This document shows positions 16,070-19,389 of a stretch of 64,000 nt of DNA, piece by piece; positions within the stretch are counted from its first letter, which is position 1, and the number at the start of each line of letters is the position of its first letter. Source of the stretch: Salinimicrobium sediminilitoris. Lineage in GTDB: Bacteria; Bacteroidota; Bacteroidia; Flavobacteriales; Flavobacteriaceae. The notes under the pieces are model-generated. The model searched no databases and had not been told where the DNA came from. It saw nothing but the letters and a program-made list of their open reading frames with translations. The position numbers and the translations under genes were made by a program. The stretch covers positions 153,148-217,147 of the forward strand of contig NZ_JAIVCC010000001.1 of the NCBI RefSeq assembly GCF_020866905.1, given 5' to 3'.

Positions 16070-17065
16070 ATGGAAATGACAGCTTCCCATGTTTTTAAAA
16101 ATTACATTAAACCATACAGTGAGGGTAGTTGTATGCATTATTCAATTCTTCAGCCTCAAATGCAATATTTCCAACATGAGTATGGCTTGATTTCCTTTAT
16201 CAAGAAATACGGATGTTACTTTGTTTTATCTGATCCTTTATTTAAACTTCCTGAGAAGGAATCCAGGATAATTTTAATTCGGGATTTTTTAAGGAAGTAT
16301 AATCGAGTTTCGTTTGTGCAGGCTTCTAAAGAATTTGCAGAACTACTTCATTTTGAATTTGGTTATTTTTCTACACAGATTGGCAATGAAAGATTGATTA
16401 ATATTCAGGAATGGGAAATAAGTGGAAAGAGAAAACAAGTTATTCGAACTTCTTACAACCAGGCAGCCAAAAAGAATATCAAAATTATAGAGAATCCTCA
16501 TGAAAATGATTTTGAGGCAATATCCTCTAAGTGGCTAAATACAAGACGGGTTAGTAAGAAGGAACTAAATTTTCTTGTCCGCATACATCCATATTTTGAA
16601 AAAGGTACAAGAACATTTTGCGCATACGATTCAGAAGGAGATCTTATTGCATATATAATATTTGATCCAATTTTTGAAAATGGAAGTTGTGTTGGATATA
16701 TTCCAGATATATCAAGGTCAAGTCCTAGTTTTAAGCAAGGCATTTACTATGCAATAATTGTTGAAGCCATTAAAAAATTTAAAATGGAAGGCTTGCAATA
16801 TTTAAACCTTGGCTTGTCACCCCTTATTTTATCAGATGATTCTAAATCCTATGAATGTGGTAAATTACGTTATGTTTTAAAACTGGTTAGGAGGTATGGT
16901 AAGAATTGGTATAATTACAATGGAATTAATTATACAAAGTCCAGGTTCATAGATGAGTCTGCAAAACCCAATGAAGGTGTTACTTCTCCAGTGTTTTTAT
17001 GCCATAAAAAATCACTCCCTTTATTTCAGGTGACAGCAATATTTAGAGCTTCAAATGTGATTTAA
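16070..17065 (+). CDS. DUF2156 / MprF C-terminal-like acyltransferase-fold protein
   Basis: A 331-residue soluble protein without membrane spans. The opening HYSILQPQMQYFQHEYGLISF, the FVLSDPLF strand and VGYIPDISRSSPS...GIYYAIIVEAIKKFKMEGLQYLNLGLSPL match the double-GNAT fold of DUF2156, the lysyl-phosphatidylglycerol synthase C-terminal family. No flippase domain is present, so this is the stand-alone type; donor and acceptor are unknown. The DNA is visibly more A/T-rich than purM before it, suggesting transfer. Met1 (16070) and Met3 are both possible starts. It may be read through from purM, 50 bases upstream. Confidence 0.7.
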   Translation: MEMTASHVFKNYIKPYSEGSCMHYSILQPQMQYFQHEYGLISFIKKYGCYFVLSDPLFKLPEKESRIILIRDFLRKYNRVSFVQASKEFAELLHFEFGYFSTQIGNERLINIQEWEISGKRKQVIRTSYNQAAKKNIKIIENPHENDFEAISSKWLNTRRVSKKELNFLVRIHPYFEKGTRTFCAYDSEGDLIAYIIFDPIFENGSCVGYIPDISRSSPSFKQGIYYAIIVEAIKKFKMEGLQYLNLGLSPLILSDDSKSYECGKLRYVLKLVRRYGKNWYNYNGINYTKSRFIDESAKPNEGVTSPVFLCHKKSLPLFQVTAIFRASNVI

Positions 17066-17111: not shown

Positions 17112-17660
17112 TCACCATTTTCTTTCCTTTAGCCTTTCCAGCTTTGGCTCAATATATCGCTTACAAAATGGAGCATCTGGATTTTTTCTGTAATAATCCT
17201 GTATCTGTTCTCTTGAAGCCTTAAATTTCCGGAAGGACAGAATTTCTGTTACAAGTTTCTTTTCAAACTCCTTCTGCAACTTGTCCAGTATTGCTTTTGC
17301 TGAAAATTTATCTTCCGTAGAGAAATAATAAATCGCACTTCGGTATTTTTTCCTGAAGGAATGATTGAAAGTGGAATTATGCGTGTGTAGGTGAATCTCC
17401 AGAAGCCGCTCCATTTTTACCCTTTTTGGAAGGTAATGAACAATGACTGCTTCAGAGAATTCTTCTGCAGGAGCTTCTGAAGCAATATAACCCTGCTCGA
17501 CCTTCACTACACCATCTACCGATTGAAAAATGGCTTCGGTACACCAGTGACAACCTCCGCCGAGGCCAATTTTAAGAGAATCTTCCACTTCAATAAATTT
17601 TAAAATTGGATTAAAAAATAGCACCGGCTTTGCATGGTGATAAGGAGTAAAAAAAGACAT
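17112..17660 (-). CDS. divergent peptide-methionine sulfoxide reductase (MsrA family)
   Basis: A 182-residue protein from the ATG at 17660 (MSFFTPYHHAK). An open frame continues to 17756, but that extension reads through the inverted repeat of the neighbouring element and is unlikely to be coding. The MsrA motif appears as GLGGGCHWCTEAIFQSVDGV, with the catalytic Cys near residue 37 and His replacing the usual Phe of GCFW. The later family segment around HDPTQ is degenerate, but KYRSAIYY is kept. The C-terminal FCKRYIEPKLERL could supply the resolving Cys. Expected role: repair of methionine-S-sulfoxide. The substitutions make full activity uncertain. Confidence 0.72.
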   Translation of the reverse strand: MSFFTPYHHAKPVLFFNPILKFIEVEDSLKIGLGGGCHWCTEAIFQSVDGVVKVEQGYIASEAPAEEFSEAVIVHYLPKRVKMERLLEIHLHTHNSTFNHSFRKKYRSAIYYFSTEDKFSAKAILDKLQKEFEKKLVTEILSFRKFKASREQIQDYYRKNPDAPFCKRYIEPKLERLKERKW

Positions 17661-17690
17661 TTTCATGTACATAGAAAAATGATCATTAAA

Positions 17691-18151
17691 TTTCCCGCAG
17701 ATCACGCTGATTTTCACAGATCTAAAGTTCATTAATCTTTCTAGGAATTCCTTCAATAATGTTGTCTACATTGAAATTCACGAGAATTCCCAGTTTTAAT
17801 CCGGTTAGTTTTAAATATGTAAGAGTCTGTTTATGATGAACCGGAGCAATTGCCTCTATAGATTTCACTTCAATCAAAACCTTCTCTTGTATAAGAAGGT
17901 CCATTCGAAACCCCACCTCCAATTTTTCATTATTGAAAATTACAGGTACAGCCACTTCTTTTCTTACACTAAGCCCTTCTTTTCTCAATTCCGACGCGAG
18001 AGCTGCGACATAAACAGATTCTAATAAACCCGGCCCAAAGGAATTAAATACCTTAAAAATAGGACCTCGAATCTTATATGAAATTTCATTTTCGTCCATG
18101 AAGAATTAAGATAATATATTATCTGCGGTGATCTGCGAAATCTGCGGGAAA
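17691..18151. mobile_element. 461-bp cassette: GxxExxY gene between 31-bp imperfect inverted repeats
   Basis: The left end (17691-17721, starting TTTCCCGCAGAT) and right end (18121-18151, ending ATCTGCGGGAAA) are inverted copies: the outer 12 bases match exactly, and 23 of 31 bases overall by eye. The left repeat ends one base before the stop codon of the GxxExxY gene (17722), and the right repeat begins 22 bases upstream of its ATG (18099). The gene and its repeats thus form one compact unit, placed about 30 bases upstream of the MsrA-like start. No transposase is encoded. That it is mobile is inference. Confidence 0.5.
17722..18099 (-). CDS. GxxExxY family protein (PD-(D/E)XK nuclease-like)
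   Basis: A 125-residue protein with the defining motif GPGLLESVY (GxxExxY) near residue 23. A nuclease-like core follows: VGFRMDLLIQEKVLIEVKS supplies the Asp and the E-x-K of a PD-(D/E)XK fold, and LGILVNFN is the terminal strand. Length and order match the family. No biochemical function is established for it. It is enclosed by inverted repeats (see the cassette entry) that leave almost no extra DNA, which suggests the gene travels or amplifies together with its ends. Confidence 0.88.
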   Translation of the reverse strand: MDENEISYKIRGPIFKVFNSFGPGLLESVYVAALASELRKEGLSVRKEVAVPVIFNNEKLEVGFRMDLLIQEKVLIEVKSIEAIAPVHHKQTLTYLKLTGLKLGILVNFNVDNIIEGIPRKINEL

Positions 18152-18233
18152 CAATTTTGAAAACCAATCCTATTCCTGCATAAGATTTTTTATGCCTTCA
18201 GAAATCCTTTTAAGAAATCCGACGGATTTATTG

Positions 18234-18254
18234 TAAATTTGGCCTTTTAAGGAG
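18234..18254 (+). promoter_or_regulatory. -7 box and Shine-Dalgarno site of prfA
   Basis: TAAATTTG (18234-18241) is a perfect TAnnTTTG box. AAGGAG at 18249-18254 is a strong ribosome-binding site six bases before the ATG, which is unusual for this lineage and fixes the start. Confidence 0.5.
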
Positions 18255-18259
18255 ATGTT

Positions 18260-19336
18260 ATGATCGAGAAATTAAATATTGTAAAGCAGCGTTTTGACGA
18301 GGTGAATGATCTTATCATTCAACCCGATGTGATCGCCGATCAAAAGCGCTATATAGAGCTGAACAAGGAGTACAAGGATTTGAAAAAATTGATGGAGGTT
18401 CGTGAAGAATACATGAGCCTAATCAACAATAGAAAGGAAGCTGAAGAGATCATTGCCGATGGCAGCGATCCCGAAATGATCGATATGGCCAAGATGCAAC
18501 TGGAAGAGGCCAAAGAGCAGATTCCGGGGATGGAGGAGAAGATAAGAATGATGCTGGTGCCAAAGGATCCTGAAGACGCCAAAAATGTCGTGATGGAGAT
18601 TCGTGCAGGTACCGGTGGAGATGAAGCCAGTATTTTTGCAGGAGACCTTTACCGTATGTACACCAAATATATTGAGAGTAGAGGCTGGAAACATAATATT
18701 GTAGATTTTAGCGAAGGAACCAGCGGCGGATTCAAAGAAATAATTTTTGACGTCACCGGGGAAGATGTCTACGGAACTTTAAAATTTGAAGCGGGAGTGC
18801 ACCGGGTGCAACGTGTACCACAAACCGAAACTCAGGGGCGCGTGCATACTTCGGCGGCTACAGTGATGGTATTGCCCGAAGCTGAAGAATTTGACGTGGA
18901 GATCGACCCTAAGGATGTGCGTATTGATTACTTCTGTTCTTCGGGACCGGGAGGACAGTCGGTAAACACAACTTACTCGGCGGTGCGATTGACGCATACC
19001 CCTACAGGATTGGTGGCGCAGTGCCAGGATCAAAAATCCCAGCACAAGAACAAAGAAAAGGCTTTCCGAGTTTTGAGATCCAGGCTTTATGAGCAGGAAC
19101 TTGCAAAAAAGATGGAAGCAGATGCAGCCAAAAGGAACTCTATGGTTTCCAGTGGGGACAGGAGTGCCAAGATTCGAACTTATAATTATGCTCAGGGCAG
19201 GGTGACAGATCACCGTATAGGCCTTACGCTTTATGACCTTGGGAACATTATCAACGGAGATATCCAGAAGATCCTAGATGAGTTACAACTTGTAGAAAAC
19301 ACAGAGAAACTGAAAGAGAATTCAGACGTTTTTTAA
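18260..19336 (+). CDS. prfA: peptide chain release factor 1
   Basis: A 358-residue class I release factor that ends translation at UAG and UAA. The GGQ motif that enters the peptidyl-transferase centre lies in [20 protein letters not shown]. The codon-recognition tripeptide is of the RF1 PxT type (VPQTETQG) rather than the RF2 SPF type. Full length is normal. It is preceded by a -7 box and a strong ribosome-binding site, and followed by its own terminator 13 bases before the pyrF start. Its presence means UAG should be read as stop here, relevant to the in-frame TAG at 58737. Confidence 0.97.
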
Positions 19337-19350
19337 ATAATAAAACCACT

Positions 19351-19378
19351 AAAGCTGCCGCACCCCGGCAGCTTTTTT
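19351..19378 (+). terminator. intrinsic terminator of prfA
   Basis: AAAGCTGCCG (19351-19360) and CGGCAGCTTT (19366-19375) form a perfect 10-bp stem with a five-base loop, then a T run. It ends 12 bases before the pyrF ATG, so pyrF expression would depend on partial read-through or on a promoter overlapping the hairpin. Confidence 0.75.
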
Positions 19379-19389
19379 ATTTCCAGCCC

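Follow-up and report, generated by a model that had tools for sequence, protein, structure and literature searches.

A GxxExxY nuclease-fold gene between inverted heptamer arrays in Salinimicrobium: a probable self-contained repeat element

Results

Structure of the element and its neighbourhood

The element spans positions 17691 to 18151 (461 bp) of the window, that is, of the whole 64,000-nucleotide stretch of DNA analysed here, and lies between an MsrA-like gene (PF01625) and prfA (TIGR00019). Its gene, on the reverse strand (17722-18099), encodes a 125-aa protein of the GxxExxY / PDDEXK_3 nuclease fold and is enclosed by two arms, both directed at it. The stop codon directly adjoins the left arm (17691-17721, forward strand), and the right arm (18121-18151, reverse strand) lies upstream of the gene, 21 bases from the ATG. 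In both arms a TTTCC end (18147-18151 in the right one) precedes three heptamers with spacers of 2 and 3 nt. These are CGCAGAT (17696-17702), CGCTGAT (17705-17711) and CACAGAT (17715-17721), separated by CA and TTT, on the left, and CGCAGAT three times (18140-18146, 18131-18137 and 18121-18127), separated by TT and CAC, on the right. The heptamer class and the 2,3 spacing of the left arm are as in other members.

The first-pass annotation had described the arms as 31-bp terminal inverted repeats, the left one at the stop codon. Re-comparison of both arms confirmed that placement, the imperfect inverted copies and their identical outer 12 bases, and corrected the match to 24 of 31 positions (77%) from 23 and the distance between right arm and ATG to 21 bases from 22. 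A match of 24/31 is not beyond chance at this locus, as 28 of 300 dinucleotide shuffles of positions 17601-18250 also gave a 31-nt inverted match of at least 24. Since the imperfect arms alone are within chance, comparison across relatives decides. CGCAGAT occurred 13 times in the window against 4.4 expected, a count that 0 of 100 shuffles reached. In the 3.59 Mb genome TTTCCCGCAGAT was present 7 times, and CGCAGAT pairs within 12 nt of each other 8 times; the pairs include overlapping ones, and one lies in apparently coding DNA. Reversed control patterns gave 0. The arms are best read as three heptamers each, of the CGCAGAT type, inverted around the gene, rather than as the unique 31-bp repeat proposed earlier.

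The long MsrA-like frame (17112-17756) crosses the left arm, and its start is probably artificial because its TTG lies inside the neighbouring gene; the extension into the arm had been regarded as artificial before. The same insertion is present in genome G006, in a region 98% identical, and in G010 a relative adjoins prfA, where the other neighbours differ; both stretches are letter-identical to parts of Salinimicrobium records. A search of RNA families gave no match at the element. Just after prfA (19313-19381) there is a sub-threshold Phe_leader match (31.9 bits, gathering threshold 55), which is probably only a terminator. A 331-aa frame with an LPG_synthase_C (PF09924) match lies at 16070-17065, between the purM-like and MsrA-like genes, and several species of the same genus carry a differently typed GxxExxY element in that slot.

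The encoded protein has a PD-(D/E)XK-type fold

The protein matched TIGR04256 at 129.4 bits (cut-off 35, E 8e-38) and PF13366 at 128.8 bits (cut-off 22, E 2e-37). E27, D67 and E77-x-K79 were invariant in 39 aligned proteins. The AlphaFold2 model reached a pLDDT of 95, and the best solved folds returned by Foldseek were SSO0001 (4ic1, TM 0.58), lambda exonuclease and LHK exonuclease. The protein is a full member of GxxExxY (TIGR04256) / PDDEXK_3 (PF13366) with residues of PD-(D/E)XK catalytic type and the corresponding fold.

Searches of Pfam and NCBIfam gave no match of the protein to DDE, HUH, serine or tyrosine recombinase families. PF04754 (Rpn / transposase_31) did not match at E 0.001, PF13366 being the only family returned by Pfam. 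The PADLOC models, used as the criterion for anti-phage defence, returned 0 families at E 0.1, and a weak PHROG match to a CRISPR-associated family was obtained (E 0.004). In four of 45 near relatives (L042, L045, L068 and L069) the matched stretch of the nuclease gene is interrupted by a stop or a frameshift.

Inverted heptamers accompany GxxExxY genes

We collected 45 loci by similarity to the window protein and 110 more among the best HMM matches (30 automatic and 80 roughly by rank, some being passed over because of a contig end or a stop); good family members are therefore favoured in the sample. From 167 loci scanned, 160 were usable and held 163 genes, 159 without identical proteins; 16 of 23 further genes of the genus brought the total to 175. 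The general heptamer was written as CRCDRAK, which replaced a narrower CRCARAK that had missed types with G at the fourth position (34 of 159 genes typed 'none'). All headline figures use CRCDRAK; as it was widened after the data had been seen, the within-genome test described below is the fairer one.

Similar arrays flanked most of the 45 relatives; the nearest carried CGCAGAT, and those further away CGCAAAG. A motif-free count of 7-mers common to the upstream and the reverse-complemented downstream flanks of the 159 genes ranked CGCAAAG first, and the top 12 also held CGCAGAT, CACAGAG, CGCAGAG and CACAAAG; A/T runs were found among the shared 7-mers as well. Comparing the flanks of other GxxExxY genes, as the first-pass annotation had advised, showed inward heptamers on both sides within 200 bp in 147 of the 175 genes, against 18 of 175 for the reversed-motif control. 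At least two inward heptamers on both sides were found in 115 genes (control 1), and at least three within 200 bp in 166, outward ones being counted where inward ones were fewer; the remaining nine genes had fewer than three, four of them none. Across 78 genes, inward heptamers had a density of 28 per kb up to 50 bp from the gene and of about 2 per kb at distances above 500 bp. Heptamer number and spacing vary among element ends, the spacing patterns being few (e.g. 2,3; 1,1; 3,4,3; 2,4,2), and by eye additional arrays lie beyond the gene's own in some cases. Outside Bacteroidota, one Geobacter locus (L067) shows, by eye, an array resembling CGCGAAG. Inverted heptamer ends are typical of GxxExxY genes.

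Heptamer type follows the protein clade

Among 166 typed genes, the letters at heptamer positions 2, 4, 5 and 7 correlated with those of the gene for the most closely related protein from a different genome at 0.69, 0.56, 0.77 and 0.88, against a permutation maximum of 0.38. When flanks were shuffled within genomes (87 genes, 34 genomes), the observed values were reached in 0, 4, 0 and 0 of 5000 permutations; with the narrower CRCARAK, they were reached in 3, 32 and 2 of 3000 at positions 2, 5 and 7. On a tree of 89 representative proteins the letters changed 14, 15, 12 and 8 times, compared with shuffled means of 29, 18, 30 and 24, position 4 being the weakest. Protein clades differ in their heptamer, which goes with the protein rather than with the genome. 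In the purM-msrA-prfA neighbourhood of Salinimicrobium, elements of CGCAGAT, CGCAAAG, CACAAAG and CACGAAG type occur in different species. Two other GxxExxY genes of the window's genome, L008 (G000:C13:248306-248650) and L010 (G000:C14:301296-301637), belong to a different protein clade and are flanked by CGCGAAT or CACGAAT heptamers, not CGCAGAT.

Part of the match between protein and heptamer is simple linkage, the gene and its flanks being inherited together. That both arms have changed in concert speaks against linkage as the only cause, short of proof of binding. In 64 elements the two arms agreed at 84% of 624 variable heptamer positions and at 50% of 217 spacers (chance 33%); we considered the arms as pure protein sites and as pure pairing sequences, and neither view accounts for them. 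Taken together, the sequence comparisons strongly suggest that the protein recognises the heptamers. Because heptamer type follows the protein, no candidate for a factor that acts on the ends is better than the protein itself, which the first-pass annotation had named as a possibility, and any cutting of them is our inference. Candidate specificity residues were helix-1 positions 7, 8, 11, 14, 18 and 19 and C-terminal positions 103, 113, 122 and 123, whose scores ranked near the top for heptamer positions 5, 7 and 2; a tree-aware test of residue and specificity offered 3 supported independent pairs each, which is too few.

Presence, absence and exchange at orthologous sites

In the window's genus, 9 of 12 genomes have GxxExxY genes, 26 in all; they occupy 7 sites, and several types occur at one of these. 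The gene and its ends are thus found together, as a unit, in different places, and to this extent the idea of a mobile cassette is supported. In genus g30, probably Flavobacterium, we compared the gap between the type I methionyl aminopeptidase (map) and methyltransferase genes at 39 loci chosen from 121 genomes (10 more loci with the gene were looked at separately, and two were unparsed). This slot was filled at 18 loci, empty at 17 and intermediate at 4. All 18 filled slots held a GxxExxY frame, with three heptamer types and two evident protein clades among them. The empty slots comprised a 1-base gap in 6 species, in which the neighbouring genes overlap (TAATG) with no array, and gaps of 19-29 bases in 11. 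Among the intermediate ones, G384 has array pairs without a gene, G345 and G324 appear remnant-like by eye, and one is unclear. As 6 of 11 g30 gene loci examined share one slot, much vertical inheritance in g30 is suggested.

The check for an empty site proposed earlier was borne out in that orthologous places without the element exist; of the target duplication expected with it, or of a clean junction, no convincing case was found in 70 elements, where old decayed copies could hide one. The junctions of the empty g30 slots have diverged, and the species are too distant for exact borders. Within the window's genus clean empty sites were not found, the intergenic DNA, including the msrA-prfA gap, being too diverged between species for comparison. 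No excision or movement was seen among the compared genomes, all of which are different species. Other possible sources of strain-level pairs gave none, with 5 plasmid records, all below 60% identity, no phages and 1 locus on viral contigs.

Dispersed arrays and gene-less hairpins

Array sites, defined as pairs of CGCAGAT or CGCAAAG, were counted in 247 genomes drawn from the window's phylum, the arrays that flank a GxxExxY gene itself being included. The gene was present in 122 of these genomes, and at least 4 array sites were found in 52 of the 122 with the gene versus 2 of the 125 without it (8 and 5 sites). In a within-family permutation 0 of 20000 trials reached the observed count at at least 4 sites, and with one large gene-poor family removed the figures were 52/119 versus 0/74. 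Repeats away from the gene, which the first-pass annotation had named as evidence against its cassette, do occur, but they concentrate in gene-bearing genomes. Genome G259, for example, has 99 CGCAAAG pairs and 5 GxxExxY genes, and so many of its arrays lie away from the gene.

At 20 array sites of the g30 genomes G259 and G243, an inward partner lay within 80 nt at 17 (a count made without a shuffled control) and an outward partner additionally at 4; both a TTTAAC and a GTTAAA end were present at 8. No GxxExxY frame was found in these 20 stretches, and three sites folded as DNA gave strong hairpins (z -9 to -15). The gene-bearing element L246 of G259 has the same TTTAAC ends, adjoining a one-letter variant of the heptamer. 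Under a strict criterion, 59 array sites from many genomes, 4 of them with a GxxExxY frame, had 6 inward, 4 outward and 9 tandem partners. By these counts hairpins are common in g30, and the signal in the mixed sample is weak.

The gene-less hairpins were present or absent at orthologous places, and two adjoin terminator-like hairpins by eye: L398 and L409 closely follow terminator-like hairpins that have T runs, and the compared genomes without them retain the terminator. At L412 (G243:C1:1345130-1345580) the heptamer hairpin is nested within a second, unrelated palindrome (ACCATATAAGTGAT...ATCACTTATATGGT), and two related genomes have other palindromic sequence at this place. A separate dispersed family of low-complexity repeats (ATTTGGAACTTGGAATTT and GATTTGAAGATTTGAGG types) occupies many intergenic regions of the window's genome (G000) and its relatives, e.g. 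at L003 and L004.

Discussion

Interpretation of the element

The association of gene and heptamers, the matching by clade, the g30 hairpins, the presence or absence of elements and the differing types at one site are observed. We think it reasonably probable that what lies at this locus is a single copy of a self-contained and widespread repeat element, which resembles the REPIN-RAYT system and is built on an unrelated PD-(D/E)XK nuclease. The 125-aa GxxExxY protein, encoded between inverted heptamer arrays (C-R-C-D-R-A-K, mostly 2-4 intact copies per arm), would itself recognise the arrays. Several subunits may bind, one to each heptamer at intervals of 8-11 bp, and may then nick or cut the hairpin or the array ends. 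Host repair or replication would then join the freed or broken ends to new places or copy them there, and the gene-less hairpins would be spread in trans by the nuclease. If the host does the joining, neither an integrase domain nor a target duplication is to be expected. The label 'non-autonomous' given earlier to the whole unit does not fit, as the unit carries its own nuclease; it suits the gene-less hairpins better.

The main rival is a homing-type selfish gene, which we consider unlikely. Here the heptamer palindromes would be older and independently spread, and the nuclease gene would invade array loci, and replace what lies within them, by cutting and repair from a gene-bearing copy. 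Different GxxExxY types in the same slot of related species would fit such invasion, as would the lack of target duplication in 70 elements, the further arrays seen by eye outside the own arrays of some genes, and a modelled fold that would suit cutting. However, the six g30 species whose slot genes overlap (TAATG) have no array between them, which indicates that insertion at this slot need not have required one, unless loss restored the overlap, and gene-free genomes are rarely rich in arrays. A homing endonuclease gene would interrupt its own recognition site, and the site would be intact in the empty allele; empty slots do occur in g30, with diverged junctions.

That the element is a conventional cut-and-paste transposon with the GxxExxY protein as its whole transposase seems distinctly improbable. 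Terminal inverted repeats, several sites and gene-less derivatives are what such a transposon would have. DDE elements, however, have fixed ends, and here the ends vary in heptamer number and spacing; the fixed-length target duplication by which DDE insertion sequences and MITEs are recognised was not found in 70 elements, and Pfam and NCBIfam gave no DDE, HUH, serine or tyrosine recombinase match.

Slightly less credible again is a host regulatory or repair factor, with the heptamers as operators or chromosomal binding sites and a gene that is immobile by itself. An autoregulatory role is conceivable for arrays that precede the start codon, and the gene keeps to one slot in part of g30; the inverted arrays at both ends, the variable occupancy of orthologous sites and the exchange of types there, and the stop in the matched stretch in 4 of 45 near relatives speak against it. 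Finally, that the arrays are ordinary dispersed repeats of an unrelated process, with GxxExxY genes merely among them, is very improbable and already disfavoured: other dispersed repeats do occur in intergenic regions of these genomes, but the clade-specific matching holds within genomes and gene and arrays co-occur within families.

Under the REPIN-RAYT-like reading, a very common protein family of unknown function (122/247 genomes sampled from the phylum) would gain a probable role and a DNA target that can be tested, and a class of dispersed intergenic hairpins would be explained. The family would also provide, as a natural series, small nucleases that are each matched to a clade-specific recognition sequence. 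The classification of mobile elements goes by the enzyme, and a single-gene element on a PD-(D/E)XK nuclease would add a class to them. In full-text literature, mostly without subscription papers, the family name and accessions gave incidental mentions only, a remark on flanking repeats, for example in the curators' notes on TIGR04256, being possible, and a search for the array sequences gave no relevant match. For TIGR04256 / PF13366, a family named for its motif, no function, repeats or mobility were found in the literature searched.

Comparison with known systems

The model of the window protein resembles Cas4 (SSO0001, 4ic1, which we take to be a Cas4) and lambda exonuclease in fold, whereas the protein itself has 125 aa in a single domain and negligible sequence similarity to them (E 0.85). 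TnsA of Tn7 is a nuclease of the same superfamily that takes part in transposition and works with the DDE transposase TnsB; in contrast, the GxxExxY element has no partner gene inside it. For the Rpn proteins we know of no cognate flanking repeats. They share the PD-(D/E)XK nuclease with the present protein and differ in Pfam family (PF04754 versus PF13366). Rpn / YhgA-like proteins (PF04754) are described as horizontally spread PD-(D/E)XK nucleases that promote RecA-independent recombination; independent insertions of rpnC at the same place are reported, and RpnA is reported to have little if any sequence specificity (PMC5350276).

The closest likeness is to REPIN-RAYT systems. As described for these systems, RAYTs are HUH/tyrosine enzymes related to IS200/IS605, associated with GT(A/G)G-headed palindromes; their genes are flanked by two inverted cognate repeats, and gene-less REPIN doublets form hairpins (PMC2817692, PMC3116915). 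Set against these accounts, the GxxExxY protein differs in having a PD-(D/E)XK fold without an HUH motif or tyrosine transposase domain, and its arms, without a GT(A/G)G head, consist of TTTCC or TTTAAC followed by spaced heptamer arrays. The two systems are alike in a gene between two inverted cognate repeats (147/175 against 18 in the control), in gene-less inverted doublets with hairpins (17 of 20 g30 sites, and weakly in the mixed sample, 6 at 59 sites), in the several types of gene and repeat and in their intergenic location. With slightly less than even confidence, we suggest that GxxExxY elements form a separate class of autonomous mobile DNA, in which one small nuclease of Cas4/lambda-exonuclease fold would read a fast-evolving heptamer code at its ends and be accompanied by a swarm of non-autonomous hairpins; the lifestyle of REPIN-RAYT would then have been invented independently.
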